Origin: Lachnospiraceae bacterium
Lineage (GTDB): Bacteria > Bacillota > Clostridia > Lachnospirales > Lachnospiraceae
Assembly: GCA_017936885.1 (NCBI GenBank)
Contig: JAGBEO010000011.1
Span: 1 to 64,000 of the forward strand
DNA: 64,000 nucleotides
Direction of reading: 5' to 3'
Shown here: positions 24,111 to 48,697 of the stretch, one piece after another
Layout: every line of letters begins with the position of its first letter
Numbering within the stretch: position 1 is the stretch's first letter
The notes under the pieces: generated by a model
Told to the model about the DNA's origin: nothing
Database searches by the model: none
What the model saw: only the letters and a program-made list of their open reading frames with translations
Made by a program: the position numbers and the translations under genes

Positions 24111-25106
24111 ATGTTAAACGGCAAGACAATACTGATTACCGGAGGCACAGGTTCTTTCGGTAAATGCTTTACGAAATATGTACTGACACACTATGAACCG
24201 AAGAAAATTATCATTTATTCCAGAGATGAGTTCAAGCAGTGGATGATGGAAAATGAATTTTCGGCATATAAAGAGAAGCTTCGGTTTTTCATCGGAGATG
24301 TCCGTGATGTGGAACGTCTCAAAAGAGCCTGTGAGGGTGTAGATTATATTATTCATGCGGCAGCATTAAAACAGGTGCCTGCCTGCGAGTATAATCCTAA
24401 CGAGGCGATCAAGACCAATATCCACGGTGCCATGAATGTGATTGATGCGGCACTGGACTGCGGTGTGCACAAGGTAGTCGCCCTGTCCACGGATAAGGCG
24501 GTAAACCCCGTGAATCTGTACGGCGGAACGAAGCTTGTATCGGACAAGCTTTTCGTGGCAGCCAACGCCTATGCGGGCAGTAAAGATATTAATTTCTCTA
24601 TTGTGAGATACGGCAACGTGGCAGGAAGCCGCGGCTCTGTTATTCCGTTTTTCCATAAGCTTATTAAAGAGGGCGCTACGGAGCTTCCGATTACAGACCT
24701 TCGTATGACGAGATTCTGGATCAGCCTGACAGAGGGCGTTGAACTGGTGATTAAAGCGTTGGCAGAAGCAACCGGCGGAGAAACCTTTATCAGCAAGATT
24801 CCTTCTTTCAAGATTACGGACTTGGCAGAGGCTATGCTGCCGGGATGCAAGATTAAGGAGACAGGCATTCGTCCCGGTGAGAAGCTGCATGAGATTATGG
24901 TAACGACAGAGGATTCCATGACTACCTACGAGTATGACAAGCATTTCATCGTATATCCGCAGATGACATGGAATAACAGGCAGCAGCCGAATTTGAGCGG
25001 TAAGAAGGTAGAGGACGGCTTTTCCTATAGTTCCGGCAATAATACCGAATGGCTGAGTGTGGAAGATATCAGAGAGTTATTAAAGGATGTAGAATTGGAG
25101 AAGTAA
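24111..25106 (+). CDS. pseB: UDP-N-acetylglucosamine 4,6-dehydratase (inverting), PseB
   Basis: 331 aa, a soluble short-form enzyme without the membrane part of FlaA1/CapD types. TGGTGSFGKCF (residues 11-21), YSRDEFKQW, GDVRDVERL, HAAALKQVPACEYNP, STDKAVNPVNLYGGTKLVSD (catalytic Tyr/Lys) and RYGNVAGSRGS are all present. It converts UDP-GlcNAc to the 4-keto-6-deoxy L-sugar, step 1 of the pseudaminic acid pathway. It starts its own transcription unit from a sigma-A promoter and is followed by pseC after a 137-base gap. Confidence 0.93.
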   Translation: MLNGKTILITGGTGSFGKCFTKYVLTHYEPKKIIIYSRDEFKQWMMENEFSAYKEKLRFFIGDVRDVERLKRACEGVDYIIHAAALKQVPACEYNPNEAIKTNIHGAMNVIDAALDCGVHKVVALSTDKAVNPVNLYGGTKLVSDKLFVAANAYAGSKDINFSIVRYGNVAGSRGSVIPFFHKLIKEGATELPITDLRMTRFWISLTEGVELVIKALAEATGGETFISKIPSFKITDLAEAMLPGCKIKETGIRPGEKLHEIMVTTEDSMTTYEYDKHFIVYPQMTWNNRQQPNLSGKKVEDGFSYSSGNNTEWLSVEDIRELLKDVELEK

Positions 25107-25243
25107 GGATAAAGAGAGAAGGACATGTGCAAACTGCATGTCCTTTATCTATATTGTTATGGAAATGCGGCATGACGGAAGCTATGAGCGGATATAGATG
25201 TGTGCATTATTTTAATGGAATAAAGAAAGAAGGTAAAAGAACG

Positions 25244-26437
25244 ATGAACAAACCTGCGATTGAGGGAGGAACTCCTGTCAGGGATACGAAGATTTTCTAC
25301 GGACATCAGTACATCGATGATGCGGATATTCAGGCAGTGGTGGATGTATTAAAAAGTGATTATCTGACCTGCGGACCGAAGATTACGGAACTGGAGCAGA
25401 AATTATGTCAGGTCACGGGCGCAAAATATGCGGTGGTGTGCAGTAACGGTACGGCGGCGCTTCATATTGCGGCGCTGGCAGCAGGCGTAGGAGAAGGAGA
25501 CGAGGTTATTACCACACCGATCACGTTTGCAGCATCGGCGAACTGTGCGCTCTATTGCGGAGCAAGACCGGTTTTTGCGGATATCAACCCGGAGACGTAC
25601 AACATTGACCCGGCTAAGGTGCAGGAAGCTATCACGCCGAAGACCAAAGCGGTGGTGGCAGTGTCCTACACGGGACAGTCCGTAGAATTGGAGCCTCTTA
25701 AGAAAATCTGTAAAGAGAATCACTTGACCCTGATTGAAGACGGCGCTCATGTAATCGGCACAAAGTATAACGGTCAGCCCAACGGCTCTGTTGCGGATAT
25801 GACTACTTTCAGTTTTCATCCGGTGAAAACGGTGACAGGCGGCGAGGGCGGTGCCGTGCTCACAAACGATGAGACTTTATATAAGAAACTGCTGCTTTAT
25901 CGTTCTCATGGCATTACCAGAGATGAACAGCAGATGGAGCACGAGCCGGACGGGTCATGGTATTATGAGCAGATTGCGCTGGGTTATAATTATCGTATGA
26001 CAGATATGCAGGCGGCGCTGATCATCAGTCAGCTTGATAAGCTGCCGATGTTTTGTAAGCGCAGAAAAGAAATCGTGGCAAGATATGATGAGGCATTTGC
26101 CAAGATTCAGGGGCTTTTCGTACAGAAGGAGATACCGGAGTCTGATACCACAAGACATTTGTACATCCTGCGTATCGTGCCGGAGAAATTAAAGATTAAC
26201 AGAAAGCAGTTCTTCGAGGCGCTTGCCGCCGAGAATGTATGCTGTAATGTGCATTATATACCGACCTACTATTTCCCGTACTATGAGAAGCTGGGATATC
26301 ATAAGGGATTGTGCCCGAATGCGGAGAAATTGTATGAGGAAATTATTTCGCTGCCCCTTTATTATGCCATGAGTGATGAAGATGTGGAGAGCGTTATTGA
26401 GGCAGTAACTAAGATTGCGACATATTATGCTGTATAG
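25244..26437 (+). CDS. pseC: UDP-4-amino-4,6-dideoxy-N-acetyl-altrosamine transaminase, PseC
   Basis: 397 aa from ATG 25244, chosen because AAGAAGGT lies upstream and the family begins with MxxPAIEGGTPVR. An upstream in-frame extension to 25049 overlaps pseB and is a spurious reading. DegT/DnrJ family: YFxxGPKITELE region, SNGTAALHIAALAAGVGEGD, EDGAHVIGT, and the PLP lysine at residue 195 in SFHPVKTVTGGEGG. Step 2 of the pathway. Confidence 0.94.
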   Translation: MNKPAIEGGTPVRDTKIFYGHQYIDDADIQAVVDVLKSDYLTCGPKITELEQKLCQVTGAKYAVVCSNGTAALHIAALAAGVGEGDEVITTPITFAASANCALYCGARPVFADINPETYNIDPAKVQEAITPKTKAVVAVSYTGQSVELEPLKKICKENHLTLIEDGAHVIGTKYNGQPNGSVADMTTFSFHPVKTVTGGEGGAVLTNDETLYKKLLLYRSHGITRDEQQMEHEPDGSWYYEQIALGYNYRMTDMQAALIISQLDKLPMFCKRRKEIVARYDEAFAKIQGLFVQKEIPESDTTRHLYILRIVPEKLKINRKQFFEALAAENVCCNVHYIPTYYFPYYEKLGYHKGLCPNAEKLYEEIISLPLYYAMSDEDVESVIEAVTKIATYYAV

Positions 26438-27742: not shown

Positions 27743-29995
27743 ATGCAGACAAGAGAAATATCACTAAAGTATAAAATAATATATGTCATTGCAGTATGCC
27801 TTACGGTTGTGCTTTTGCTGCTTGGCAATGAGGGGAGTCAGCCGTTAGAATATACCGGTTCCGAGCTGCAGCATTCGGTCGGTCTGATTGATTCGGAGAG
27901 TGCGCTGTTGATCAAAGAGTCAGTGGCAAGAAACGGTGCCATAGCCAATACACCCCAATATGTGATAAATAAAGGAAGTTATACTGCCAGCATGGAATAC
28001 AAGGCAGAAAACGACGACTCGGTTCTGGAATTATGGGAGCAGGGAAGTAAAATTGCGGCATGGCCCATTCCTGCGGATCAGGGGAAAATGAGCGTAGATT
28101 TTACCCTGTCTAAAGATATGAAGCAGTTACAGCTAAAGATTAATTACAGCGGACAGGGCGAATTGAGAATTAAGAAGCTGGCATTGTCTCCCCATGGCAT
28201 GTTCTATTCGGATACCTATTTCTTTGTGGCAGTCTTTGTGTTGTTGAATGTGTTGGGGTATGCGTATGTCAGAAGCGGCAGGAAGCGGATTACGCAGGAG
28301 CGGCTGTTAGACTACAGCATTATATTAGGTGTGGCGCTTCTGGCGACGTCTCCTATGATGCAGACATACCTCTATAACGGAGACGATTTGTGTTATCATC
28401 TGGCCAGGCTGGAAGGATTAAAAGACGGTATTTTGGACGGGCAGATACCGGTTAACATCCTGCCGGACGGCTTGAAAAATCATGGATATTTAAATGCCAT
28501 GTATCCTTACCTGTTCCTATATATAGGAGCACTTTTACGGATCTGCAGGGTGTCTCTGGCATTATCCTATAAAGTGCTGATTTTTCTTGCCAATCTGGGT
28601 TCTGCAGTCAGTGCTTATGTGGCAATGAAATCGATGATTCAATCGCGCAGAAGTGTGATGCTGGCTGTGGTGTTATATACGCTGATGCCTTACCGATTTA
28701 CGAATATTTTCTCCAGAGGAGATTTAGGAGAAACCCTGGCGCTTATCTTCTGGCCGCTTGTCATTGCGGGATTGTATCATGTGATCATGGGAGAACGCAG
28801 GAAGTGGTATTATCTGGTGATTGGATTTAGCGGTTCACTGCAGAGTCATATCTTAAGCGTGGCTTTTGTGTCGGTGATTTGCGTGATCACCGCCCTGGTT
28901 TACTGTGGGCGTATTATTCGGGAAAAAAGATATGTAGAGATCGGTAAAGCAGCCGGGCTATCCATTCTTCTCAACGTGTGGTATCTGGTTCCTTTCATGA
29001 CTTACTATTTCGGAGAGGATATCTGTAAAGACAGTCTTAGGTGGAGCAGTTATTTCGAGCAGTCGATCAACCCCTCGAATCTTACGCAGAGTCTGAGTCT
29101 GTATAATAAACAGTATTTTTCACTGGGGCTGGCGCTTTTGGGCTGTCTTGGTATCGGAGTGGTTTATCTGCTTTGCGAGAGACGTGCCAATAAGACGGAG
29201 TTGGACGGTTATCTGTTGTATCTGTTGGTTTTAGGCTGTATTCTTACTTTTATGACTACGGGGTATTTCCCGAACAGAGCAATGCTTGACAACAGCTTCT
29301 TTGAAAATATTGCGACAATGGTTCAGTTTCCCTGGCGATTCCTGGGACCTGCCTCGACCTGTATTTTGTTTGTGGGCGCAATCGGATTGACTCGTTCAGA
29401 GGTCATAAAGCCTTATCGTAATATTATTTTTGCCATGCTTGTGGGATTGAATCTGCTCATTATCGTGTCTGTACCGACGGACAATAACCATATGCCCTAT
29501 GACAATCCGGAGGCTGTGGCATCTAAAGGTCATGAAAGTAAGCTGGCTGCGAATATAGGATTGTTCTATCCTCACGAATGGCGCATTGACGGGGCGGCGG
29601 AAGAGAGGCTGACCAGCAGTGTCATCAGCTCTGATTTGAACAGCATAACAGTTTATGATTATCAGAAGAGGGGGACGAAAGCAGTCGTGTCCTATCGTGC
29701 GGAAGATGATGGCTATATAGAATTGCCTATGCAAAGCTATATCGGTTACCGTGCCTGTGACGAGAACGGAAATACGGTTACGATAGAGCGTGGCGATGCT
29801 GCCAGAATGCGCTTTGCAGTGAAAGGGGATGGTGCGGAGCACCGGATTTATGTGCAGTACGGCCCTGTGGCAGGATTTGTGATTGCGAATATTATATCTG
29901 CCATGACGATGATAGGATGCATATGGTACTTGTACCGCAGCAGGAAAAAGAAATGCGGGATTAAGGATGAATCAGCGCTTTCGCAATCCGTTTAG
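27743..29995 (+). CDS. Large polytopic membrane protein (YfhO/GT-C-like)
   Basis: 750 aa. One N-terminal helix, a soluble extracytoplasmic domain (about residues 40-155) with beta-rich composition, about ten helices from 160 to 600, and a second soluble part (600-720) before a final helix. The loop NGDDLCYHLARLEGL near residue 215, with acidic and aromatic residues, is in the place of the GT-C catalytic loop. This architecture resembles YfhO and related glycosyltransferases of surface polymers. Substrate unknown. Its last 35 bases overlap the 3' end of the minus-strand gene that follows. Confidence 0.7.
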   Translation: MQTREISLKYKIIYVIAVCLTVVLLLLGNEGSQPLEYTGSELQHSVGLIDSESALLIKESVARNGAIANTPQYVINKGSYTASMEYKAENDDSVLELWEQGSKIAAWPIPADQGKMSVDFTLSKDMKQLQLKINYSGQGELRIKKLALSPHGMFYSDTYFFVAVFVLLNVLGYAYVRSGRKRITQERLLDYSIILGVALLATSPMMQTYLYNGDDLCYHLARLEGLKDGILDGQIPVNILPDGLKNHGYLNAMYPYLFLYIGALLRICRVSLALSYKVLIFLANLGSAVSAYVAMKSMIQSRRSVMLAVVLYTLMPYRFTNIFSRGDLGETLALIFWPLVIAGLYHVIMGERRKWYYLVIGFSGSLQSHILSVAFVSVICVITALVYCGRIIREKRYVEIGKAAGLSILLNVWYLVPFMTYYFGEDICKDSLRWSSYFEQSINPSNLTQSLSLYNKQYFSLGLALLGCLGIGVVYLLCERRANKTELDGYLLYLLVLGCILTFMTTGYFPNRAMLDNSFFENIATMVQFPWRFLGPASTCILFVGAIGLTRSEVIKPYRNIIFAMLVGLNLLIIVSVPTDNNHMPYDNPEAVASKGHESKLAANIGLFYPHEWRIDGAAEERLTSSVISSDLNSITVYDYQKRGTKAVVSYRAEDDGYIELPMQSYIGYRACDENGNTVTIERGDAARMRFAVKGDGAEHRIYVQYGPVAGFVIANIISAMTMIGCIWYLYRSRKKKCGIKDESALSQSV

Positions 29996-31139
29996 CACCC
30001 TGACCGTCCAGAAAAGCTCTCATACATTGGGAGCTTTTTTTACGTACTTCTACATTAACTGACATCTGTGTCAGGAAACTGAGGATGCTCGCTATAACAG
30101 GACCGTTTACAGCAGGGAGATTTTCTGGGGAAGAGCCGGATGATGCCTGGGAAGATTTCTTGCTGCGGATATCACCCGCGAAAGGAATCAGCCCCTTTTT
30201 GGAAAAGGTTTCCACGGCGGTGCGCTGATTTTCAGCCATCAGATAGCTGACCGTGGGGACACCTACGGTGCATAATTCGCACAGGGTTGTGCCTCCGGCG
30301 GAGACTGCCAGATCACAGGATGCCATCAGGGACGCCATATCGGAAACCCCTTCGTGGATATGGATATGTGCGTTTGCTTCTGCCATAGCTGTCAGAGCAT
30401 GATAGCGGGAATTGGCTTTGCTGGTGACGATGTGATAATCACAGTCTGAAAGGGGCAGATAAGCTTCGTCTGTATTGTGAAAAATATTCTGCAGCAAATG
30501 TTCTGCCACACCGTAAGGATCGGTACCTCCGGTGGAGAGTAAAATGTTTTTAACAGAAGGGCGAACCGCGTAAGCAGGCTGTTCAAACTGTTCCCGCAGG
30601 GGGGTGTAGCAGGCGCCTAATAATTTACGTGCTGCATTTTTATAATGAATGCAGTCCGTGTCAGTGTCATAGTGAATGATCAGATCCACTTCACAAGGGA
30701 AGCTTCTTAAATCGTCCAGATAGGCGATCTGACAGTGGGAGCGCAGTGCTGCGAAATAGGCTGGTGTGGCGAAATAGGAATCTATGAAAAGCCATGGTTT
30801 GGTACTATTTTGTTTTATTGCTGCGGTTGGCATGTCGGGTATAGTAGTGTTGGAGGCTGTATATTCTGAATCTGCTTGTGTGTCCAGATAAGACAAGAGT
30901 GCAGGCAGTTCATCGTGCATTCTCTGATAATTGCTGTGCAGGCAGTGAATACCAAATTCACCGGGGATATCAAAACGCTCCTGTAAAAGCGTAAGGCTTT
31001 CTTCATCCGATACAATAAAGGTTATGCAGGCATTCTGTTTGGCGCAGGCGCGTGCGATGGCGAGGCAGCGCATGATATGTCCTGTAGCAATTTCCGTATT
31101 TGCGTCCGTTCTAAAGTAAATGCGTGTTAAATCCGACAT
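29961..31139 (-). CDS. pseG: UDP-2,4-diacetamido-2,4,6-trideoxy-altropyranose hydrolase, PseG
   Basis: 392 aa; Pfam-type PseG proteins are ~280-350 aa, and the extra length is in a low-complexity insert (SSQASSGSSPEN, about residues 325-340). Motifs: IYFRTDANTEIATGHIMRCL, LLSTGGTDPYGVAEHL, HEGVSDMASLMASCDLAVSAGG, and TTLCELCTVGVPTVSY. It hydrolyses the UDP from the sugar after N-acetylation, step 4 of the Pse pathway. It lies on the minus strand, converges with the upstream gene and overlaps it by 35 bases. A minus-strand promoter (31213-31241) drives it. Confidence 0.88.
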   Translation of the reverse strand: MSDLTRIYFRTDANTEIATGHIMRCLAIARACAKQNACITFIVSDEESLTLLQERFDIPGEFGIHCLHSNYQRMHDELPALLSYLDTQADSEYTASNTTIPDMPTAAIKQNSTKPWLFIDSYFATPAYFAALRSHCQIAYLDDLRSFPCEVDLIIHYDTDTDCIHYKNAARKLLGACYTPLREQFEQPAYAVRPSVKNILLSTGGTDPYGVAEHLLQNIFHNTDEAYLPLSDCDYHIVTSKANSRYHALTAMAEANAHIHIHEGVSDMASLMASCDLAVSAGGTTLCELCTVGVPTVSYLMAENQRTAVETFSKKGLIPFAGDIRSKKSSQASSGSSPENLPAVNGPVIASILSFLTQMSVNVEVRKKSSQCMRAFLDGQGAKRIAKALIHP

Positions 31140-32922: not shown

Positions 32923-32948
32923 AAAAACCAAATGGGAGGGAAAAGTAA

Positions 32949-34304: not shown

Positions 34305-34325
34305 TCTGTAAGTTAAGATAACTAT

Positions 34326-34359: not shown

Positions 34360-34431
34360 CTTATCTCACATATTGATTGAATGATGAGTCTTGGGAAGGT
34401 ATTGGCAGAAAACGTGAAGGAGGGAGTTTTC

Positions 34432-36124: not shown

Positions 36125-36204
36125 GGCGGAAGCCGCTGGCCGGCCAAAGGAGCAAATGACAATATTTTAAAATTTAAGCATAGTAGAAAGGAGCCTTGCT
36201 ATTT

Positions 36205-39200: not shown

Positions 39201-39390
39201 GACTCCTCATGAGATGGAGAATGCAAGGCATCCTTATGAGCTGCCGGAAGTACACTACACAGTAATCCGGGTAGCCAAGCAGCAGATGGGTGTAGGCGGA
39301 GATGATAGCTGGGGCGCTTTGGTACATCCTGAGTATTTGATTGATGTCAGTGGTAAGATAGAGTTTACGTTTACGTTCCGCGGGATTTGA
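36205..39390 (+). CDS. lacZ: Beta-galactosidase, LacZ type (GH2)
   Basis: 1061 aa from ATG 36205; AAAGGAG lies before it. Standard GH2 LacZ order: jelly-roll with PAHIQMEGYDAPQYVNVQYP, the Ig-like domains, then TIM barrel with GVNRHEFSSVSGRH, the acid/base Glu478 in WSCGNES and the nucleophile Glu545 in CEYSHAMGN. A C-terminal domain 5 (NFWRAPIDNDEG, WYGNGPAETYEDR) follows. It hydrolyses beta-galactosides inside the cell; no signal peptide is seen. Transcribed with the transporter. Confidence 0.96.
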   Translation: MTQFHYDKVKDPLFFKENVLPAHSMQTIYTNNRELFDQKSSLKKSLDGVWKFSYAVNIDSAIAGFEKEEYDCKSWADIRVPAHIQMEGYDAPQYVNVQYPWDGREALKPGEIPTRFNPVASYVKYFEVPSQMQGKEIRICFRGVESGMALWLNGSYVGYSEDSFTPSDFDLTPYMKEGENKLAVQVYKWTSSSWCEDQDFFRFSGIYRSVELYAVPVVHVEDIRVKTLFNGDDFSKAVLEVQTKVKGNGSVRYTLTDGDNVLFERTETVCGQPNAVGSDTEKSNEAGQSAAGTATVTIQEEIVAPKLWSAEEPYLYQLAVEVLSESGETEEYMEQAVGFRKFEMKNNRMLLNGKRIVFKGVNRHEFSSVSGRHVSYEELEKDIVMMKRHNINAIRTCHYPDDLDIYDLCDKYGIYMIAECNMETHGSWDAYLRGLKDKSYILPGEKEEWEPMMLDRVNSCYQRDKNHPSIVLWSCGNESFGGRTIFRMSEKFRELDDTRLVHYEGVFQDRSYNDTSDMESRMYAKVWDIEEYLASPGAKPFVCCEYSHAMGNSCGALHKYTRLADQENSGYQGGFIWDYIDQSIYKKDRYGKEFLAYGGDFHDRPSDYNFSGNGIVYGGERDASPKMQEVKFDYQNIAVTVSEKEFEVWNKNLFVNTDTFEAKALLLRNGVQIAEKTLEVSVAPESRAGFPIPFEIPSHAGEYAVTISFRLRQDTLWEKAGYEVAFGQAVVAVVNAGDEAEAKKAAQAGIPAGAAEYVNAETKPYTVIYGNNNIGVRGEEFEALFSMLGGGLVSYRYAGVELLERTPKPNFWRAPIDNDEGNNMPGRYAQWKIASLYLTGKGVGRKLETPGVTEYENPVVKEEKDCLTLTYTYRLQTTPDAECQVTYRVYGDGRIQTTLSYDPVKELGDMPEFGMMFHCDADYDHVEWYGNGPAETYEDRKEGAKLGVYRNLVKDNVAQYMVPQECGNKTGVRYAKVTNRKGRGLLFAGDSINFSALPWTPHEMENARHPYELPEVHYTVIRVAKQQMGVGGDDSWGALVHPEYLIDVSGKIEFTFTFRGI

Positions 39391-39421
39391 TGCGATAGGA
39401 GAGATCTGTAAGCGACAATAT

Positions 39422-39477
39422 AAATCCGAAGTGTCTGGCGCTTTAGTATAGTGCCGGATGCCTCGGATTTTGTATTT
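39422..39477 (+). terminator. Terminator-like hairpin after lacZ
   Basis: AAATCCGA (39422-39429) pairs with TCGGATTT (39463-39470), the inner GTCTGGC region pairs with GCCGGAT, and an interrupted T run follows. It lies 32 bases after the stop. Confidence 0.7.
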
Positions 39478-39587
39478 TCCTGATATTAACAGCGTTTTAC
39501 TACTGTGTTTAAGTTGGATAGAAGGAGGATTTATTGTAAAATAGAAATATAGTTGGAAATGAACTTGGGGAATGTGTAAGGATGATT

Positions 39588-40673
39588 ATGGGGAATACAG
39601 GGGCAAACAGGCAGGAAACGCAAATGCAGATACAGAGGAGAAACAGAAGGCAGGGAAGTAAGCGGCAGAATAACAGAAAGTCGCGGCGTAAAAAGATACT
39701 GCTCGGAGGATGCGCTGTTATGGGACTGCTGGCTGCATTGTATGTTGCCCTGGTATACTTTCTGGTAAGTGCTGCGCTGGTGCCTTCTTTTATGGAAAAG
39801 CTGGAAGCCTTCGAGAGGATTACGGAGGAAAGCTATGCGGTTCAGGTTCAGACATCTGATATTAAAGTAAATCATCAGGCGATACGAAATGAGACTAATG
39901 AGTGGCTGCTGACAGCGCAGTGTCAGAAAATTACGGCCGAAACAGAAGATGGATATCTTCTGGCTGCGGAAGAATTTTATACAGATTCATCAGTGAAGGA
40001 CACTCATAAGTGGGTGCTGGTACTGCATGGGTATACCGGATGGAAGGAAGAAATGTATCCCTATGCATATTGGTATCATGAAGAAGGATATCATGTTATT
40101 GTTCCTGATTTACGTTGTCAGGGAGAGAGTGAAGGCGACTTTATCGGAATGGGCTGGACAGATCATTATGACTGTATGCTTTGGATTCAGTATATTTTGA
40201 GTCAGGATGCGGATGCCTGGATTGTGATTCATGGGCAGTCTATGGGAGCTGCAACTGCTTTGATTATGACAGGAGAAGAGGACCTGCCGTCTAATGTTGC
40301 TGCTGTTATTTCGGATTGCGCTTACACGGATGCCTATGCAATGTTTGAAGACAAAATCACAGAATGGTTTTCGCTTCCGGCATTCCCTTTGGTAGATTCG
40401 GCATGCCTGATGCTCCGTGTTCGGGGTGGCTATAACCTAAAAGATGCCTCTGCGATGAATGCGGTTAAGAAAAGCAAGACACCTACACTTTTTATTCACG
40501 GAAGCGCGGATGCTATGATATCTGCGCAGATGTCGAAAGATTTGTATGAAGCAGCTAATTGCAGGAAAGAATTGTTGATTGTTGAAGGGGCGGGGCATGC
40601 ACAGGCATTGGATAAAGATCCGGTTTTGTATTATGGTACAATTAGAGCATTTTTAGCACAGTTATCTTCCTAA
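39588..40673 (+). CDS. Membrane-anchored alpha/beta hydrolase
   Basis: 361 aa. A highly basic N-terminal region (residues ~8-30) precedes one membrane helix (about 40-65) with the catalytic domain outside. Motifs: LHGYTGWKEEMYPYAYW, PDLRCQGESEGDFIGMGW, nucleophile Ser218 in GQSMGAAT, and the C-terminal VEGAGHAQAL with the catalytic His. Substrate is unknown. The ATG at 39588 is chosen because AAGG lies 6 bases upstream; 39582 is in frame. Terminator-separated from lacZ. Confidence 0.85.
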   Translation: MGNTGANRQETQMQIQRRNRRQGSKRQNNRKSRRKKILLGGCAVMGLLAALYVALVYFLVSAALVPSFMEKLEAFERITEESYAVQVQTSDIKVNHQAIRNETNEWLLTAQCQKITAETEDGYLLAAEEFYTDSSVKDTHKWVLVLHGYTGWKEEMYPYAYWYHEEGYHVIVPDLRCQGESEGDFIGMGWTDHYDCMLWIQYILSQDADAWIVIHGQSMGAATALIMTGEEDLPSNVAAVISDCAYTDAYAMFEDKITEWFSLPAFPLVDSACLMLRVRGGYNLKDASAMNAVKKSKTPTLFIHGSADAMISAQMSKDLYEAANCRKELLIVEGAGHAQALDKDPVLYYGTIRAFLAQLSS

Positions 40674-40989: not shown

Positions 40990-41688
40990 ATGCTTACTAT
41001 GAGTTCTATAGCAATCATAACCGCCAGAGGCGGCAGTAAAAGAATACCTCGTAAGAATGTGAAACCATTCTGCGGTAAGCCGATCATCACATATTCCATT
41101 GAGGCGGCGCTTCGATCCGGTCTGTTTGATGAAGTCATGGTGTCCACGGAGGATGAAGAAATCGCACAGATTGCCAGAGAAGCGGGAGCACAGGTGCCTT
41201 TTATGCGAAGCAGCGAGAGTGCGGGTGACTATGCTTCTACGGACGATGTGCTGTTAGAAGTGTTAGGAGCGTATAAGGCCCAGGGAAAGGAGTTTGATAC
41301 CTTCTGCTGCCTCTATCCTACGGCGCCTTTTGTGACAGCGGAGAAGTTGAAGAAGGCGATGGGACTTTTGGAGAAAGCGGATTCTGTGATGCCTGTGGTG
41401 GCGTTTTCTTTCCCGCCGCAGCGCTGCATGGTATTAAACGAGGAAGGCGAACTTCGCATGAAGTGGCCGGAACATGCTAAGACCCGTTCTCAGGATCTTG
41501 AGCCGTATTATCATGACTGCGGGCAGTTTTATTGCTGCAGGACGGCACCTTTTTTACAATATAAAACAACGGACTTGCCCCATATGGTACCTATGATCAT
41601 GAGCGAGCTGGAAGTGCAGGATATCGATAATCCTGACGACTGGGAGATTGCGGAGCTTAAGTACCAGAAGATGATTGCTAAAGCTTAG
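40990..41688 (+). CDS. pseF: CMP-pseudaminic acid synthetase, PseF (acylneuraminate cytidylyltransferase)
   Basis: 232 aa from ATG 40990, following AAAGGT; 40969 and 40999 are also possible, and homologues begin near 40999. Motifs: IAIITARGGSKRIPRKNVKP, the CMP-donor binding P-loop, EVMVSTEDEEIAQIAREAG, LLEVLGAY, CCLYPTAPFVTAEKL. It activates the nine-carbon keto sugar with CTP to CMP-sugar, the last step before transfer. It is 25 bases upstream of pseI. Confidence 0.92.
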   Translation: MLTMSSIAIITARGGSKRIPRKNVKPFCGKPIITYSIEAALRSGLFDEVMVSTEDEEIAQIAREAGAQVPFMRSSESAGDYASTDDVLLEVLGAYKAQGKEFDTFCCLYPTAPFVTAEKLKKAMGLLEKADSVMPVVAFSFPPQRCMVLNEEGELRMKWPEHAKTRSQDLEPYYHDCGQFYCCRTAPFLQYKTTDLPHMVPMIMSELEVQDIDNPDDWEIAELKYQKMIAKA

Positions 41689-41713: not shown

Positions 41714-42763
41714 ATGAAAAAGGAATTTAGAATAGGCAACAGAATCATCGGTAAAAATTCTCCCTGCTTCTGTGTGGCAGAGATGTCCGGGAACCATTTG
41801 AAGGATTATAACAGAGCGGTAGAGATCATTCATGCGGCGAAGGAAGCCGGTGCGGATGCCATTAAATTGCAGACTTATACGGCGGACAGCTTGTCCATAG
41901 ATTGTGATAATGAGTATTTTCAGATTCATGGCGGATTGTGGGACGGTATGACCGAATATAAACTGTATCAGGAAGCAAGCACACCGTGGGACTGGCAGCC
42001 GAAGCTGCAGGAAGTGGCAAAAGGGCTGGGGTTAGAATGTTTCTCATCTCCTTTTGACTTTGCTTCAGTGGATTTTATGACGGAGCTTGCTATGCCTGCC
42101 TATAAGATTGCTTCTTATGAAATTAATGATATACCGCTTATTCGCAAGGTAGCGAAGTTGCATAAGCCTGTTATCTTTGCAACAGGAGTGGCTCATGCGG
42201 AGGATATTGAGAGGGCGCTGCAGGTATGCAAAGAAGAAGGCAATGAAGAAATCATGCTCTTAAAATGCGTATCGGCTTATCCTACGCCCTATGAAGAGAT
42301 CAATCTGAATATGATTCCTACTTTGGCAAAGACGTATGATTGTCTGGTGGGGCTTTCCGATCATTCTATGGGGAGTGTGGTGCCGGTAGGAGCCGTTTCG
42401 TTAGGAGTTAAGATGGTGGAGAAACATCTGACACTCCGCCGCGCGGATGGCGGACCTGATGGTGCTTTTTCCATGGAGCCGGAAGAGTTTAAGGAGATGG
42501 TAGATCATATCCGTATTCTTGAGAAAGCTTTTGGACAGTCTGAGTATGGTTTGACACAGAAACAGGAAAAGGAGCGCAGTGGTTCCCGGTCTCTTTTTGT
42601 GGTAAAGGATATTAAGGCGGGGGAGAAAATTACACCTGAAAATGTGCGTTCGATCCGTCCCAATGCAGGGCTTCATACGATGTACTATGAGGAAGTGATG
42701 GGAAAGACGGCGGTTTGTGATGTTGCGATGGGAACGCCTTTGGCGTGGGAATTGATGCATTGA
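41714..42763 (+). CDS. pseI: Pseudaminic acid synthase, PseI (NeuB family)
   Basis: 349 aa. NeuB N-terminal domain (IKLQTYTADSLSIDCDNEYF, TPWDWQPKLQEVAKGLG, FSSPFDFASVDF, PAYKIASYEINDIPLI, LSDHSMGSVVPV) and a C-terminal SAF/antifreeze domain (GSRSLFVVKDIKAGEKIT, NVRSIRPNAGLH). The details at TWxGxTxYxLYxEA-TPWDWQ and the length fit PseI rather than sialic acid NeuB. It condenses the altrose derivative with phosphoenolpyruvate. GGAGG lies 12 bases before the ATG. Confidence 0.93.
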   Translation: MKKEFRIGNRIIGKNSPCFCVAEMSGNHLKDYNRAVEIIHAAKEAGADAIKLQTYTADSLSIDCDNEYFQIHGGLWDGMTEYKLYQEASTPWDWQPKLQEVAKGLGLECFSSPFDFASVDFMTELAMPAYKIASYEINDIPLIRKVAKLHKPVIFATGVAHAEDIERALQVCKEEGNEEIMLLKCVSAYPTPYEEINLNMIPTLAKTYDCLVGLSDHSMGSVVPVGAVSLGVKMVEKHLTLRRADGGPDGAFSMEPEEFKEMVDHIRILEKAFGQSEYGLTQKQEKERSGSRSLFVVKDIKAGEKITPENVRSIRPNAGLHTMYYEEVMGKTAVCDVAMGTPLAWELMH

Positions 42764-42798
42764 TGTAACATAAGATTCTGGGAAAGGAATGAATCTTC

Positions 42799-42942
42799 AT
42801 GAAAGAAATCAATACACTTGCGGATTATATGAATGATGAAAAATGGGTCAGCCTGGAAGAACGGCAGAGGATAAATTTTGAAGTGGAACTCATTGGGAAA
42901 TTATTGTTATGGTTTGAGCGTCATCAAATCCGTATACTTTAA
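42799..42942 (+). pseudogene. Truncated XRE-type HTH antitoxin-like fragment
   Basis: 47 codons with a ribosome site (AAAGGA) and a stop at 42940. It reads MKEINTLADYMND..WVSLEERQRINFEVELIGKL, the N-terminal lead of HigA/XRE antitoxins that precede the HTH, but then breaks off where the HTH should start. The last 36 bases overlap the 3' end of the minus-strand ATP-grasp gene. A recombination junction is the simplest reading. Confidence 0.6.
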
Positions 42943-43872
42943 CATACAAACCCCTTCTTCGTAAGCACCGGTAGCATCTGTATTTTCTATACCCGCGATA
43001 TTGTTTGCAATCAGTTTGGGGAAATTCACGCCACAGTTATACGCATGGGGATATCCGCCGCCGAAGCGCGGATTGATCTCGGAGATATAATATTCTCCGC
43101 CAATCTGGAAAATATCCATGTCAATAGGACCGCACAGATCTAAGGTTGCCACGGTCTTCTGAATCAGTTCAAACAATTTCTCATCTTTATAAGAAACGGA
43201 CTTCTCCGTCTCGCCCGCACGCATGCGCAGTTTCTTTTTGACAAAGATCGTGACGGGTTTTCGGGACAATAAATCCATGTAAATATCTGCACCGTATTCC
43301 TCGCCTTTGGCAAAATTCTGAATAAGGTACTCTTCATCGGCATATTTGCACAAAGTTTCCAATAATTCTAAATGTTCCACTTTTTGAATGCCTACACTGC
43401 CGCAGCCGCGGGTGGGTTTCAGAAAGACGGGCAGCGACATGGCACCTGCTTTCTGCTCTTTCAAAAATGCTTCGAAGCTGTTCACGCTTGTAATAGCAGG
43501 CAGATGATGTTTCTTAAGGTGCTGATAAAACACAAACTTATCACGACATAAATCCACAGCCTCAGCACCGGAGACGATAGGAGTTACGCCGATATCAGTA
43601 AACAAATCTTTATGAGATGCGATCAGATACAATTCGTCTTCCTGTAAAGGAAGCACAGCGTTAATTTTTTCCTTTTGACAGATATCAATAATGGTGTCCA
43701 GATAATTCGGCTCTGTCATACGCGGTACGATATAGTGAGCATCCGTATCATATAATGCGGGCGCGTAAATGCTGCAGTCTGTACCGACTACCTTTTCGAT
43801 GCCGTTTCCTTTTTCTTTAAAATAGCGTACAAGCAGGTTTCTTGTGCCGCAGCTTAAAATCAGAATATTCAT
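42907..43872 (-). CDS. ATP-grasp ligase, carbamoyl-phosphate-synthase-large-like
   Basis: 321 aa from ATG 43872, preceded by GGAGA; a longer in-frame start at 43944 lacks support. ATP-grasp domain: RDKFVFYQHLKKH, FLKPTRGCGSVGIQ (phosphate loop), LIQNFAKGEEYGADIYMD, and the metal-binding DMDIFQIGGEYYISEINPRF followed by GGG. It should ligate an acid to an amine or thiol with ATP. Such proteins are common in surface-polysaccharide loci. It follows the decarboxylase gene by 32 bases on the minus strand, so the two probably act in one pathway. Confidence 0.87.
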   Translation of the reverse strand: MNILILSCGTRNLLVRYFKEKGNGIEKVVGTDCSIYAPALYDTDAHYIVPRMTEPNYLDTIIDICQKEKINAVLPLQEDELYLIASHKDLFTDIGVTPIVSGAEAVDLCRDKFVFYQHLKKHHLPAITSVNSFEAFLKEQKAGAMSLPVFLKPTRGCGSVGIQKVEHLELLETLCKYADEEYLIQNFAKGEEYGADIYMDLLSRKPVTIFVKKKLRMRAGETEKSVSYKDEKLFELIQKTVATLDLCGPIDMDIFQIGGEYYISEINPRFGGGYPHAYNCGVNFPKLIANNIAGIENTDATGAYEEGVCMLKYTDLMTLKP

Positions 43873-43904
43873 AATATTTCTCCATCGTCTTGGCAGATGA
43901 TCTT

Positions 43905-45104
43905 TTACATAGTCTGCCCCTGTACATATTCTTCCGGCGTCCACTTTTTCCTCACCATCTTCATCTCGTTCCCGTTGCGCACATATACGGCAGGGAAATA
44001 CTGAATGAAAAGGGGATTCAGACTCATAGTGTAGCCACCTACATTTTCATAAATGATATGATCTCCCGGAACCAATTCCGGCTGATTTTCGTAAGTAAAA
44101 AGCCGATCCACTTCCATACAGGTAAAACCGCTGATTACCTGACGGTCTTTTACGGGGCGGTCGCCGGTAAAATTTTTATCATAATCTACATGAAACAGAT
44201 GAGACGTTTTGATCATGGTCGGGTCAATATTAAAACGGCTGCCGTCTGTCATCACATAGCGGGTGCCTTTGATGTCCCTCGTGTCGAAAATACTTGTCAC
44301 AAAGGTGGTGCATTTGGAGATCAGGGAAATGCCCGGTTCTACAATGATTTTGGTCTTCTCCGGTGAAAAGCGTTTGGATAATTCCTCCGCCACCGCGGGA
44401 AAGTAATCGGGATATTCCGGTCTGCCTTTCATGCCGCCGCAGTAACCGCCGCCCAGATCCACATATTCCAGATCAAAGTCAAATTCCTGCTGTAACTGAC
44501 ATGCCATCCGGGCAATGGAGCGGAAGATGTTTACGCTGCGGGATTTGCTGCTGGAATGTAAGTGAAGACCGGTGATTCGTACGCCGGGAAGCTTCCGCAG
44601 AAGCGCAATTGCCTCGGCAAATTTACCTGTCTCGTAGCAGAAACCGAAGCGTCCGCTGACTTCGCCCATGGTCGTTTCACCGGGGCACATTTGTTCCAGA
44701 TTGAAGTTGACACGAATGCCGATTTTGAACATTGTGCCGGGATTATCATTGACCAACTTGGTCAGCCAATCCAGTTCCCGGCGGGAATCCAGATTGACAT
44801 AGCCGCCCGCAAGCAGCACGCTACGGAAGGATTGTTCGCTTTTATAGGGGCCGTTGTAGACGATCTCGCGGTCTGTGAAGCCCAGATATTTAGCAAGACT
44901 GTATTCATCCTCGGACACGACCTCCGCATATGCGCCATTTCTTTTGACGAAGCTCACGAGCCAGGGCAGGGAGTTAGTCTTGAAGGAATAACCGACCAGA
45001 TAATTGCCCCAGTTTTCCTTTAAAGAGCCTGTGAGCATGTCATAATAGTGCTGTAAGATCGGTTCATCTATTACAAAATAAGGTGTTGGTAATTGCGTGT
45101 TCAT
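43905..45104 (-). CDS. PLP-dependent decarboxylase (alanine-racemase-fold, DAP/ornithine decarboxylase type)
   Basis: 399 aa from ATG 45104, 8 bases after GGAG. A fold type III enzyme: PLP lysine Lys42 in YSFKTNSLP, RVNFNL, GLHLHSSSKSR, VDLGGGYCGG, the EPGISLISKC phosphate motif, TCMEVD (the CxxxD catalytic Cys), and ENVGGYTMSLNP. It should remove the carboxyl group from a diaminopimelate- or ornithine-like amino acid. It does not resemble a full lysA neighbourhood. Paired with the ATP-grasp gene, it could make an amine that is then joined to a sugar or acid; this is inference. Confidence 0.88.
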   Translation of the reverse strand: MNTQLPTPYFVIDEPILQHYYDMLTGSLKENWGNYLVGYSFKTNSLPWLVSFVKRNGAYAEVVSEDEYSLAKYLGFTDREIVYNGPYKSEQSFRSVLLAGGYVNLDSRRELDWLTKLVNDNPGTMFKIGIRVNFNLEQMCPGETTMGEVSGRFGFCYETGKFAEAIALLRKLPGVRITGLHLHSSSKSRSVNIFRSIARMACQLQQEFDFDLEYVDLGGGYCGGMKGRPEYPDYFPAVAEELSKRFSPEKTKIIVEPGISLISKCTTFVTSIFDTRDIKGTRYVMTDGSRFNIDPTMIKTSHLFHVDYDKNFTGDRPVKDRQVISGFTCMEVDRLFTYENQPELVPGDHIIYENVGGYTMSLNPLFIQYFPAVYVRNGNEMKMVRKKWTPEEYVQGQTM

Positions 45105-45128
45105 CACAAAACTCCGTTTCCAAGTGTT

Positions 45129-45153
45129 TTCCGGCGGCTTCTTCCTGCCGGAA
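45129..45153 (-). promoter_or_regulatory. Leader hairpin and promoter of the decarboxylase gene
   Basis: TTCCGGC (45129-45135) and GCCGGAA (45147-45153) form a stem in the transcript leader 25-50 bases before the start. Further upstream on the minus strand, TTGCCC, 17 bases, and TAAGAT are a plausible promoter. The rest of 45105-45452 has no gene. Confidence 0.4.
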
Positions 45154-45362
45154 CATCTACAGATTTTAATCCTTTTTATCTTACCCTATTTCAAGTATGG
45201 GGGCAAGGTGAAATATGTAACAGATATGGATCAAAAACTGTGAAAGAATCGGTCAACTGATTGTCAACCAGTCAGTGATATACTTGTCCTGTGACAGCAG
45301 CGGGGCTGTGTTTAATGGACAATGAATTAGCGGATTTGCCGCCGCACCATTTTGTTTCCTAG

Positions 45363-45380
45363 GAAATATTGTAATATTTC
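45363..45380 (+). promoter_or_regulatory. Perfect inverted repeat upstream of the XRE remnant
   Basis: GAAATATT-GT-AATATTTC, an 8-bp perfect palindrome with a 2-base centre. It lies 73 bases before the XRE fragment at 45453 and is shaped like the operator of a homodimeric XRE repressor. Confidence 0.5.
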
Positions 45381-45452
45381 TTTCTTTTAGCTGGATTTTT
45401 CGTTATGCTAAAGATGTCCCTGCAGGTGAACCGGGAAGGAGAAAAGCGCAAG

Positions 45453-45527
45453 ATGGAATTTGGAGAAAAAATAAAACATTTGAGGGAAGACAGAGGAATG
45501 ACGCAGCAGACAATTATTTTTTTGTGA
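45453..45527 (+). pseudogene. Truncated XRE-type HTH regulator fragment
   Basis: 24 codons with a good ribosome site (GGGAAGGAG). The protein, MEFGEKIKHLREDRGMTQQT, is the first helix and start of the second helix of an XRE HTH regulator, then a stop at 45525. The rest of the HTH is missing; a downstream membrane segment continues in another frame. Confidence 0.7.
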
Positions 45528-45556
45528 AAGGAAGGCTTTCTCCCCGCAGAACAGGA

Positions 45557-45940
45557 ATGATCATTGGTGCTATCTTTTTGCCGGAGGGGTTGTCGCCTCT
45601 TGTTGCGTTAATATCTGTCGGTAATATAAGCGACAACATAATAAACATACTGTTTCCGGTTTTCGGGATGTTGCTTGTTTATGTGATCGAGATAAGTTGT
45701 GTTGTAAGTTTCTTTATGATAGAAAAAAGAACTTCGCCTGTCCCGGTCTATCTGATAGGGCTGTATCTCATGATAGCGGAAGGAGGGCACATCGGTCAGA
45801 TGCTGCTGCATAACAGCGGTGAGATCGGTACTGTAGTGGTGTTGTCGGTATCTTCTCTAGGGAGGATATCAGTTGCAGGACTTTTGATGTATCAGGCATA
45901 CATTATGGGGCAAAAGAGAAAGAGGGCATGGAAAGCATAA
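45557..45940 (+). CDS. Small membrane protein, possible C-terminal part of the disrupted XRE gene
   Basis: 127 aa from ATG 45557; a GTG at 45524 that overlaps the previous stop (GTGA) extends it by 11 residues. Four hydrophobic helices and a basic tail (GQKRKRAWKA). No family recognised. No clear ribosome site exists for either start, so it may be the C-terminal remnant of an XRE-membrane fusion protein whose middle was deleted; the N-terminal HTH fragment immediately precedes it. Confidence 0.45.
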   Translation: MIIGAIFLPEGLSPLVALISVGNISDNIINILFPVFGMLLVYVIEISCVVSFFMIEKRTSPVPVYLIGLYLMIAEGGHIGQMLLHNSGEIGTVVVLSVSSLGRISVAGLLMYQAYIMGQKRKRAWKA

Positions 45941-46034
45941 AATCCGGTCATATTCTTTTCGAATACAGAAAGTTGCTGTATAATAAACACAGTTTAATGA
46001 AAATGGGCGAGTTTTTAGTATAGGAGGTACTTGT

Positions 46035-47459
46035 ATGACTATAGAAGAAATTCTTGCAGCAGAATCCAAGAATGTAGAATTCAAGGAGAGCCTGCCGGAA
46101 AAAAGTATTAAATATATGAAAACTGTGGTTGCCTTCGCCAACGGAAGTGGCGGCAAAATTATCTTTGGTATTGCCGACAAGACCAGAGAAGTGACTGGAA
46201 TTGATAAAGAAGTCGTATTCAAAACAATGGATGCCATTGCTAATGCAGTGTCGGATAGTTGTGAACCGGCTATTATCCCAGACATTACTTTGCAGACTAT
46301 TGAGGAAAAGACCGTCATTGTGGTCGAAGTTTCCGAGGGGAGACAGCGCCCTTACTATATTAAAGTTCTTGGCAGAGATAGCGGTGTATATGTTCGTATA
46401 GCTGGAACAACTCGCCTTGCAGATGAATATATGATAAAAGAGTTGATGTTTGAAGGCAGTAACCGTTACTTTGATCAAGCTCTGTGTGCCGGATGGGATA
46501 TTGCCGATGGGGAAATTGATGCCTTGTGTCAAGCTATGAAAGATCAGGCTATCAAGAATGCCCGCAACGAAGAACAAAAAGAAGCCATCAAAGATGTTGG
46601 ACGGCAGCAGTTGCTTTCTTGGGGTATTTTGATTGAACGGGAGGGAAAATATTATCCCACTAACGCTTATGCCATTTTGGCAGGCTGTGGTGCACTTCGT
46701 GTAGCGACCCAGTGTGGCGTATTTAAAGGAACCACCAAAGAGGTATTTGTGGATCGTCGGGAGTATACTGGTCCCATATGGGAGCAGATTGACCAAGCAT
46801 ATCAATTTGTTTTGCGGAATATTCACATGGGTGCAATTTTTGAAGGTATTTACCGTCAGGATGTCTATGAAATCCCGCCGGATGCTATTCGGGAATTGAT
46901 TATCAATGCTGCTGTGCATCGTAGTTATTTAGATCACGGAAATACGCAGATTGCAATCTATGATAATCGACTGGAAATTACTTCCCCTGGTAAAATTCCT
47001 ATGGGGCAAACACTGGAACGTATGAAAGAAGGCTATTCCCAGATTCGTAATGAAGCGCTTGCTTATGCTTTCTCTTACATGAATTTGATTGAGCATTGGG
47101 GTAGTGGTATTCCTCGTATTATCGGAAAAGTGAAAGCTGCCAGATTGCGGGAACCAGAGTTTATTGGTGGGGAAGTGGACTTACGAGTCAATATTTATCG
47201 GGGTCAAATTGAGGTCAGAGACCACAAAAATGACCTCGATGACCACAAAAATGACCTCGATAACTCCAAAATTGATTTAACCACGCGATTAATAAAGGTG
47301 ATTCGTCAGAACCCGGAAATGACACATAAAGCATTAGGAGAAGAACTGTCAGTTTCGGCAGCTACTATCAAACGGACGCTTGCCAAGCTGCAGCAGGAAG
47401 GTAAAGTTATTCGTGAAGGTTCTAATCGTAAGGGAAAATGGATTGTGCTTGATGAGTGA
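46035..47459 (+). CDS. AlbA_2 (Schlafen-like) / RecG-like ATPase putative transcriptional regulator
   Basis: 474 aa. N-terminal AlbA_2 domain: ESKNVEFKESLPEKSIKYMK, TVVAFANGSGGKIIFGIAD, VIVVEVSEGRQRPYYIKV. Next a middle region and a HATPase_c_4-like domain: LIINAAVHRSYLDHG, IYDNRLEITSPG. The C-terminus is a winged helix (MTHKALGEELSVSAATIKRT). A 21-bp tandem repeat encodes DHKNDLD twice in the linker (47220-47261). It is a common acquired gene, with a regulatory or defence-linked role proposed for its family. AGGAGGTAC precedes the ATG. Confidence 0.9.
   Translation: MTIEEILAAESKNVEFKESLPEKSIKYMKTVVAFANGSGGKIIFGIADKTREVTGIDKEVVFKTMDAIANAVSDSCEPAIIPDITLQTIEEKTVIVVEVSEGRQRPYYIKVLGRDSGVYVRIAGTTRLADEYMIKELMFEGSNRYFDQALCAGWDIADGEIDALCQAMKDQAIKNARNEEQKEAIKDVGRQQLLSWGILIEREGKYYPTNAYAILAGCGALRVATQCGVFKGTTKEVFVDRREYTGPIWEQIDQAYQFVLRNIHMGAIFEGIYRQDVYEIPPDAIRELIINAAVHRSYLDHGNTQIAIYDNRLEITSPGKIPMGQTLERMKEGYSQIRNEALAYAFSYMNLIEHWGSGIPRIIGKVKAARLREPEFIGGEVDLRVNIYRGQIEVRDHKNDLDDHKNDLDNSKIDLTTRLIKVIRQNPEMTHKALGEELSVSAATIKRTLAKLQQEGKVIREGSNRKGKWIVLDE
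47220..47261 (+). repeat. 21-bp tandem repeat, two exact copies, within the AlbA_2/ATPase gene
   Basis: GACCACAAAAATGACCTCGAT occurs at 47220-47240 and 47241-47261, followed by a degenerate third copy. It stays in frame and encodes DHKNDLD. Confidence 0.9.
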
Positions 47460-47623
47460 TTGAAGTGCATGGTTTCTCAGACGGGTAATTTGACTGGATG
47501 AAATACGGTATGACCCAATAACAACGGAGCATGACCTTGACAATTATGTAATATATAATAATCAATGAAACAAGGATGATTTGGGTGAAGACAGAATATC
47601 ATCCTGACAGTAATGGAGTAACC

Positions 47624-48697
47624 ATGAAAGAACGTATTTATGTATGCCACACCTTTTATCATGTATATGTAAGCTGCCTGAAAGAATTGGCGCTTCCCGC
47701 AGACAGGCAGGGCAAAGCGACCCTGATGCTCAGCACTATGTCCAACAATTTCGGGAATCTGAAAGAACGTGCCGACCAGTGCCCGCTTTTTGAGGAAGTG
47801 ATCATGTTCGAGGAAAAAGAAGATGTGTTTTTCCCGGAGCTTCAGAAATATCATACAGACAAAGGCAATCTGGTGCTCAATATGCTTTCCCGCATCAAAT
47901 ATACGAAGCTTTTCGGTAAGCTGGAAGAGCAATATGTTCCGGTGGATTTTAAGCAGTATCAGGACATCTACGTGTTCTGCGATTCCGATCCCATCGGCTA
48001 CTACTTAAATTATAAAAAGATATATTATCATGCAGTGGAGGACGGACTTAACTGCATCCAGTATTATGATACGGCGCGTTACGATAACCGCGGGCATTTC
48101 GGGCTGAAAGCGTGGATGTCGGCGCGGAATCTGATTTTTATCCAGAATGGCTACGGCAAGTATTGTCTGGATATGGAGATCAATGATCTGAGTGTGGTGC
48201 CCTATCCTTGCAAAAAATACATTGAAGAACCCCGTGCGAAGCTGATTGAACGGCTTACGAAAGAGGACAAGGATATCTTAATCCGGCTGTTTATTGAGAA
48301 TCTGGACGGACTGCTGGAACAATTGAGAAAAGGCGCAGAACAGAAGGTGCTTGTGCTGTCTGAGCCGCTGTGTGATCTGGATGTGCGCAAACAGATCTTC
48401 TCGGATATTATTGCGCAGTACAGTGTGATCGATGGAAAGCAGGCGCAGGTGATCATTAAGCCCCATCCCCGTGATGTGCTGGATTATCACAGGGAATTCC
48501 CGGAGCATATCGTGCTGAGCGGTATGTTTCCGATGGAAATTCTGAATTTTATTCCGGACTTGTCTTTCAGACGAGTGATCTCGGTGCTGACCGTACCCAA
48601 TGGGATTCAGTTTGCGGAGGAGATTCTTTTCCTGGGAGAAGATTTTCTGGATCGGTATGAGGCGCCGGAACTGCATAGACAGAATGAGCAGATATAA
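47624..48697 (+). CDS. Glycosyltransferase family 52-like (sialyltransferase-type) protein
   Basis: 357 aa from ATG 47624, 6 bases after GGAG; an in-frame upstream start (47576) lacks a ribosome site. IYVCHTFYHVYVSCLKEL at the start, GYYLNYKKIYYHAVEDGLN in the middle, and VIIKPHPRDVLDYHREFP with an HP motif near residue 285 resemble GT52 lipooligosaccharide sialyltransferases and related GT-B enzymes. In this region it would be the best candidate to transfer the CMP-linked nine-carbon sugar; this is inference. Followed by the ABC flippase. Confidence 0.6.
   Translation: MKERIYVCHTFYHVYVSCLKELALPADRQGKATLMLSTMSNNFGNLKERADQCPLFEEVIMFEEKEDVFFPELQKYHTDKGNLVLNMLSRIKYTKLFGKLEEQYVPVDFKQYQDIYVFCDSDPIGYYLNYKKIYYHAVEDGLNCIQYYDTARYDNRGHFGLKAWMSARNLIFIQNGYGKYCLDMEINDLSVVPYPCKKYIEEPRAKLIERLTKEDKDILIRLFIENLDGLLEQLRKGAEQKVLVLSEPLCDLDVRKQIFSDIIAQYSVIDGKQAQVIIKPHPRDVLDYHREFPEHIVLSGMFPMEILNFIPDLSFRRVISVLTVPNGIQFAEEILFLGEDFLDRYEAPELHRQNEQI

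Follow-up and report, generated by a model that had tools for sequence, protein, structure and literature searches.

The locus described here raises the question of why a gene for a pyridoxal phosphate (PLP) decarboxylase and a gene for an ATP-grasp ligase should stand as a pair beside genes for pseudaminic acid (Pse), a nine-carbon sugar. It lies in a window of 64,000 nucleotides (contig JAGBEO010000011.1 of the Lachnospiraceae bacterium assembly GCA_017936885.1), to which all coordinates refer unless a contig or locus is named; L, G and C numbers are our labels for loci, genomes and contigs of the source genome, respectively. Gene content, gene replacement and homology point, with modest confidence, to a module that tailors the N-acyl group of 4-amino sugars, in which the ligase would take the place of the acetyltransferase PseH. 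As the initial annotation had described, the two genes form a minus-strand unit; both are intact, 32 bp apart by open reading frame (ORF) analysis, and each is preceded by a GGAG-type ribosome site.

43905..45107, minus strand: alanine-racemase-fold PLP decarboxylase (hereafter DC), probable ATG start at 45104 (PF02784, 92 bits; PF00278, 25 bits).
42907..43872, minus strand: ATP-grasp ligase with a PylC-like N domain, PRK12767 family (PF21360, 122 bits; PF02655, 57 bits).

The long ORF of the ligase opens at a GTG at 43944; conservation points to the ATG at 43872 as its start. The ligase scores 422 bits against NF009406 (PRK12767 ATP-grasp, cut-off 271), which makes it a member of this family; its nearest solved structure is 2pn1, the function of which is not established. 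DC is assigned to the alanine-racemase-fold PLP decarboxylases by two Pfam domains above cut-off and by K43 and C330, which are invariant in 18 of 18 aligned rows and were given the roles of PLP lysine and active-site cysteine by homology.

The pair faces pseI and pseF in a CMP-pseudaminic acid pathway locus, in agreement with its original placing, as PseB, PseC, PseG, PseI and PseF all score above their curated cut-offs.

24111..25106, plus strand: pseB (TIGR03589, 541 bits, cut-off 408).
25049..26437, plus strand: pseC (TIGR03588, 478 bits, cut-off 424); the match starts at ORF residue 82, so that the true start is probably internal to the ORF.
29961..31139, minus strand: pseG (TIGR03590, 176 bits, cut-off 154, match 30207-31124).
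40996..41688, plus strand: pseF, pseudaminic acid cytidylyltransferase (TIGR03584, 288 bits, cut-off 206).
41714..42763, plus strand: pseI, pseudaminic acid synthase, convergent with the pair (TIGR03586, 463 bits, cut-off 340).

The Pse and bacillosamine pathways have in common a UDP-4-amino sugar, the amine of which is normally acetylated. PseH, PglD and the sugar N-formyltransferases likely act at the same step as the ligase, N-acylation of the 4-amino sugar, but are unrelated to it and use acyl-CoA or formyl-folate. Replacement was assessed in 71 PseI loci of the family, in which a PseH-type acetyltransferase or an ATP-grasp gene was scored within 6 kb of pseI using models of our own. An acetyltransferase alone was found in 25 of them, an ATP-grasp gene alone in 23, both in 1 and neither in 22 (Fisher p 2e-5). 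A first pass, in which overlapping ORFs had been removed, gave 24, 22, 1 and 23, respectively (n = 70, p 1e-4), and had missed a PseH in L228 that is above cut-off. Two of the 22 loci with neither gene carry a formyltransferase gene beside pseI, and a number of the rest are short contigs. Seven of the 24 ATP-grasp loci had DC, versus none of the 26 acetyltransferase loci. No PseH above the curated cut-off was found in the 50 genomes of the genus (the source genome included), whereas PseG exceeded its own in 48 of the 50. The window locus itself (L252) has the ATP-grasp gene and no PseH-type match within 6 kb of pseI. The best PseH match of the source genome, at 57244-57813, is disfavoured as a hidden PseH: it reaches 70 bits (cut-off 93) and stands two genes on from a WecE-type transaminase (634 bits), and in L036, L040 and L030, too, its homologue follows a WecE-type gene.

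Eighteen of the 50 genus genomes match the version of the pair seen in the window, and the loci of the 17 other than the source genome were fetched. A search for the pair beside pseI in other genomes, which the initial annotation had proposed as a check, found the layout kept throughout, with pseI convergent with ligase and DC in all 17 (three with an inserted gene). Twenty further stretches from the genus were more varied. Five have a DC at 47-49% identity together with a different ligase (type B, that of the window being type A), and 11 have a divergent ATP-grasp gene beside pseI (type C, 20-27% to the reference ligases, L155 alone being tested in Pfam) and no DC. As for the other four, no ATP-grasp was seen in L160, L169 and L172 have no pseI in the stretch, and L173 has a 316-aa ATP-grasp and no DC. 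Within the genus, pseI thus commonly has an ATP-grasp neighbour, the variable partner of which is DC.

DC is present in 15 of 299 genomes of the family; a PseI match was obtained in 14 of these 15 versus 56 of the 284 genomes without DC (Fisher p 6e-9), 3 of the 70 matches, one of them in a DC genome, being below the curated cut-off. Gene contexts were counted in the 80 best of 277 named loci, 16 of which overlap the 17 genus loci, so that the two sets are not independent. Pse genes accompany DC in 72 of the 80, bacillosamine-type genes only in 6 and neither in 2, and an ATP-grasp gene was found in 72. These counts depend on ORF calls and on models built in this analysis, and the named loci represent the top of the scoring range. 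When ORFs were first picked under stricter rules, the three contexts numbered 67, 6 and 5 (n = 78), and ATP-grasp was found in 69 of 78. The loci in neither sugar context are the named loci L065 (a 3-kb contig) and L085 and the divergent family loci L058, L061 and L062. A phylum-wide draw of 398 genomes yielded 5 DC matches at E <= 1e-75, that of the source genome among them. Three of the five come from three other families (L249, L250 and L251; 28-49% identity) and each adjoin a PglC-like gene, two of them with an ATP-grasp gene, which suggests that DC may have been in the bacillosamine-type setting first. Both settings occur in G213, which carries one DC gene in a Pse-type and a second in a bacillosamine-type locus.

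The inheritance of DC was followed in a tree of 94 rows, using the first-pass ligase labels and, for the family loci, labels assigned by hand. The DCs of Pse loci separate into two clades: among the 38 rows of the first, the ligase is type A in 36 and type B in 1, with none found in 1, and among the 41 of the second it is type B in 33, with none found in 8. The bacillosamine-type rows fall outside both. One isolate in which DC accompanies a type-B ligase is Parablautia muri D42-62 (L141). This match between ligase type and DC clade indicates that DC follows the ligase and not only the Pse genes. Gene fusions were also found, DC being joined in one frame, without internal stops, to PseF in L050, L051 and L135 and to PglC in L059 (Pfam support for three of the four); no fusion of DC to a ligase was seen among the DC ORFs of at least 550 aa in the loci examined.

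What DC itself may do is suggested by its substrate residues. In the diaminopimelate (DAP) decarboxylase LysA, the far end of the substrate is bound by the Arg of an ExGR motif, the Arg of an RPxxY motif and the Glu after the active-site Cys, which are Arg249, Arg285 and Glu315 in the Thermotoga enzyme (PMC8277567, in excerpt). When these positions were mapped on DC by sequence alignment, none of the 18 DC rows had any of the three residues, and a Met followed the active-site Cys in all 18. The best lysA of the source genome, C5:58652-59866, keeps all three (EMGR, RPAMY and CEN); it scores 275 bits against TIGR01048, itself slightly below the cut-off of 298, and DC scores 140-141 bits against the same model. 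The nearest solved structures to DC are the N-citrylornithine decarboxylase 7kh2 (FigC/FslC), which comes first, with DAP decarboxylases and BtrK also among them. FigC, BtrK, SbnH, MccE and AcsE decarboxylate conjugated amino acids, according to the available part of PMC7857480, and FigC/FslC shares with DC the Met after the active-site Cys. FigC/FslC nevertheless belongs to a siderophore pathway, and DC is not a member of its model NF041039 (133 bits, cut-off 500). Sequence kinship and residue pattern together suggest that DC may act on a conjugated amino acid.

In the mechanism that we propose, the ligase would activate a carboxylate with ATP and join it to the amine of the UDP-4-amino sugar, later N7 of Pse; in bacillosamine-type loci it would stand in for PglD. 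The sugar is the more likely amine partner, because both pathways have a 4-amino sugar nucleotide. The other two ligase types point to amino acids as its partner: L-amino acid ligases account for both the C-terminal domain and the closest solved structures of the one type-C protein tested, and for the one type-B protein tested such a ligase comes second, after 4dim, named phosphoribosylglycinamide synthetase. The decarboxylase family of DC removes the carboxylate adjacent to an amine. If the alpha-carboxylate is removed, the amino acid must be attached by another one, for which Asp or Glu is the simplest choice, so that the acyl donor would probably be one of these acidic amino acids, attached via its side-chain carboxylate. 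DC would then strip the alpha-carboxylate from the attached amino acid, leaving a beta-alanyl or 4-aminobutanoyl amide; the calculated residue masses would be 345.154 and 359.169, respectively, versus 316.127 for Pse5Ac7Ac. The acidic sugar would thereby gain a positive charge and become amine-tipped and zwitterionic, and CMP-Pse bearing this group would pass to a surface glycan, probably via the enzyme encoded by a nearby gene, a probable user of CMP-Pse.

47576..48697, plus strand: glycosyltransferase family 52 (GT52) gene (PF07922, 48 bits), which immediately adjoins DC in 9 of the 17 genus loci.

We infer the amine, the amino acid, the order of the steps and the glycan from evidence that is comparative throughout. 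The wider proposal is more tentative, and we are slightly more doubtful than confident of it: that a modular ligate-then-decarboxylate editing of N-acyl groups operates in at least two pathways (Pse and bacillosamine-type), with DC acting on the sugar-bound amino acid, and that Lachnospiraceae would make zwitterionic Pse tipped with beta-alanine or 4-aminobutyrate (GABA).

Parts of this scheme have counterparts in known systems. In Neisseria, PglB2 carries an ATP-grasp domain where PglB carries an acetyltransferase, which alters the N-acyl group of the sugar (PMC11130364, in excerpt). PglB2 makes the glyceramido sugar GATDH and resembles the pair in having ATP-grasp in the acetyltransferase position at a 4-amino sugar, but it is one fused protein for which the excerpt names no decarboxylase, whereas the pair consists of separate ligase and decarboxylase genes in a Pse locus. 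A second parallel comes from butirosin biosynthesis. The ATP-grasp ligase BtrJ loads glutamate on a carrier in that pathway. BtrK, among the nearest solved relatives of DC as noted above, is an alanine-racemase-fold decarboxylase that converts the bound glutamate to GABA (PMC7857480, same excerpt). The carrier of BtrJ and BtrK is a protein, whereas that proposed for the pair is a sugar; no acyl carrier gene was noticed near the pair, although no search was aimed at one. An ATP-grasp gene has also been described in a flagellin cluster that goes with a Pse-like glycan, with no decarboxylase found in the part of the report available (PMC3765264), and the excerpt on a Pse cluster of Exiguobacterium mentions no ATP-grasp (PMC8851196). 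We found no paper in the open-licence literature that describes the ligase/DC pair on Pse, nonulosonic acid or bacillosamine, and the modification is probably undescribed, as had been suggested at the outset.

Several observations weigh against this reading. The exclusion between DC and the acetyltransferase is weak by itself (p 0.04), and the alternation of acetyltransferase and ATP-grasp is strong rather than strict, L212 (G188) having both kinds and 22 PseI loci neither. PseH-like acetyltransferases occur in 12 of the 80 DC loci: nine adjoin a WecE-type gene and lie some 10 kb from DC, two are in bacillosamine-type loci 8-10 kb from DC, and one is a weak match (25 bits) near pseI in L136, a locus without ATP-grasp. 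The DC genome G264 has a PseH barely above cut-off (95 versus 93 bits), 13 kb from DC. Eight of the 80 DC loci show no ATP-grasp in the fetched stretch, and a distance of 2-5 kb mostly separates ligase and DC in type-B loci. The source genome itself has a second PRK12767 ATP-grasp gene with no DC adjacent (C23:67192-68175, equivalent to L028:12192-13175; 506 bits). Finally, the three ligase types are distantly related, and type A, that of the window, is nearest to 2pn1 and matches an L-amino acid ligase only weakly.

Two side observations concern bacillosamine-type genes. The ATP-grasp gene at C23:67192-68175 comes after PglF/PglE/PglC-like genes, and in comparable clusters elsewhere DC stands between PglC and the ligase. 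When 11 bacillosamine-type DC loci were inspected by eye for PglD among ORFs of 150-260 aa within 8 kb, L053 showed two similar ORFs of this size, one of which scores as a hexapeptide transferase; no PglD count was drawn.

Among the alternatives, the one that survives best reverses the two steps. DC would first produce an unattached omega-amino acid such as beta-alanine or GABA, whose carboxylate the ATP-grasp enzyme would then couple to the sugar amine. Gene content and contexts are also explained in this way, and the co-inheritance of DC and ligase types agrees with it. We nevertheless regard it as unlikely, since DC is fused to PseF and PglC, enzymes of the later sugar, and was not seen fused to the ligase, and since several characterised relatives of DC work on conjugates (PMC7857480, the part cited above). 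Ligation first is favoured on the same ground, the action of FigC, SbnH, AcsE, MccE and BtrK on conjugated amino acids, and the order given in the initial annotation, in which decarboxylation precedes ligation, is the less likely of the two.

It is less probable still that the ligase uses glycerate or another acid, with no decarboxylation, while DC serves a separate small molecule. The glyceramido sugar made by the ATP-grasp phosphoglycosyltransferase PglB2 (PMC11130364, in excerpt) speaks for it, as does L033, in which pseI and the ligase are separated by a glycerate kinase family gene (L033:8052-9203, 488 bits). Such a kinase is, however, present in only 1 of the 17 genus loci, and DC is fused to sugar enzymes and tracks the ligase type on the tree.

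We give very little weight to the third alternative, in which DC makes an amine that the ligase joins to the carboxylate of Pse, as the initial annotation had proposed. The pair does adjoin pseI, but DC and ATP-grasp genes also occur in bacillosamine-type loci. These have no genes for nine-carbon sugars, a context that the annotation itself had named as refuting, and their sugar carries no carboxylate. DC moreover lacks the Glu/Asp that holds the distal amine in DAP and ornithine decarboxylases, as far as the excerpted sources describe it, and the absence of PseH would be left unexplained. That DC is the housekeeping lysA, a possibility raised in the same annotation and suggested by its top NCBIfam model (141 bits), is ruled out by a score far below 298 and by the higher-scoring lysA at C5:58652-59866, which keeps the three substrate residues that DC lacks.

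The pair had also been described as flanked by XRE-like leads, which proved to be true gene fragments.

42772..42900, plus strand: decayed HigBA-type remnant (toxin tail and antitoxin start) in the pseI-ligase gap, outside the system; 71.5% to L253.
45453..45940, plus strand: decayed XRE-membrane regulator with its middle missing, outside the system; similar to the regulators of L254-L256 and absent from L064.

The first aligns over 129 bp (E 5e-14) to the junction of intact genes for a Gp49-type (HigB-like) toxin and an HTH_3 antitoxin in L253. L063 and L064, the named relatives with the DC most similar to that of the window (92% and 90%, respectively), match the fragment at the same site (91% and 81%), and their pseI-ligase gaps of 882 and 849 bp encode both proteins of a toxin-antitoxin pair (Gp49-type and HTH; L063:6418-7299 and L064:4368-5216). 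The gap measures -36 to 84 bp in 15 of the 17 genus loci (16 bp in L030, where 33 bp separate DC from the GT52 gene), which leaves no space for an XRE gene, and the remaining two gaps, of 570 and 1178 bp, hold other inserts. The short gap in most loci and the intact genes in L063 and L064 indicate that the toxin-antitoxin pair entered the gap in the close lineage of the window and decayed in the window. As to the second fragment, 45453-45512 is about 80% identical (E 5e-11) to the starts of intact XRE-membrane regulators in L254-L256, and the ORF at 45524-45940 (138 aa) aligns to residues 150-282 of the L254 regulator (26%, E 9e-9); since the start and the second half of one regulator are matched, 45453-45940 is a single gene minus its middle. 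In L064, which lacks this regulator, the counterparts of 45159-45213 and 45952-45999 are contiguous.

Judged from these alignments, the XRE-like pieces are later insertions, now decayed, in a pre-existing locus. The opposite view, that the decarboxylase and ligase genes had inserted into or replaced XRE regulator loci, is rejected in view of the 15 gaps without room for an XRE gene, and the antitoxin in L063 and L064 belongs to a toxin-antitoxin pair. An operator-like palindrome proposed beside the second fragment found little support; the repeats detected, without a chance control, were a perfect 8-bp inverted repeat at 45363-45380, an A/T-rich 9-bp pair with 39 nt spacing and two imperfect pairs (73-74%).

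Other features of the surroundings were noted. Between pseG and pseF, 31771-40673 holds an AraC-type regulator, sugar ABC transporter genes, a family 2 beta-galactosidase and a hydrolase; this segment looks like an insertion into the Pse locus, because in L037 a minus-strand 368-aa ORF is followed directly by pseF. A Schlafen/AlbA_2 gene with a RecG-like C-terminal domain (46035-47459) lies between DC and the GT52 gene, a position at which L030 and L064 have no room for it. In L143, L144, L146 and L148, from the genus and without DC in the stretch, PseG is a single frame of 717-783 aa with an N-terminal extension, which in L143 is a weak match to a DegT-type aminotransferase domain. On contig C23, in the surface-glycan region that also holds the second ATP-grasp gene, C23:81520-85768 (L029:6520-10768) has genes for an AMP-binding ligase, a formyltransferase and an MBOAT acyltransferase consecutively.

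These results correct the annotation of both genes, for which the best NCBIfam names are "carbamoyl phosphate synthase-like protein" (ligase) and diaminopimelate decarboxylase (DC). Pse-type sugars are surface features sensed by hosts and phages. If our reading of the pair is true, the acidic sugar would become a zwitterion and exact residue masses can be predicted, and the way in which such bacteria vary this sugar would be explained by a ligase slot that can be swapped and a decarboxylase that is optional.

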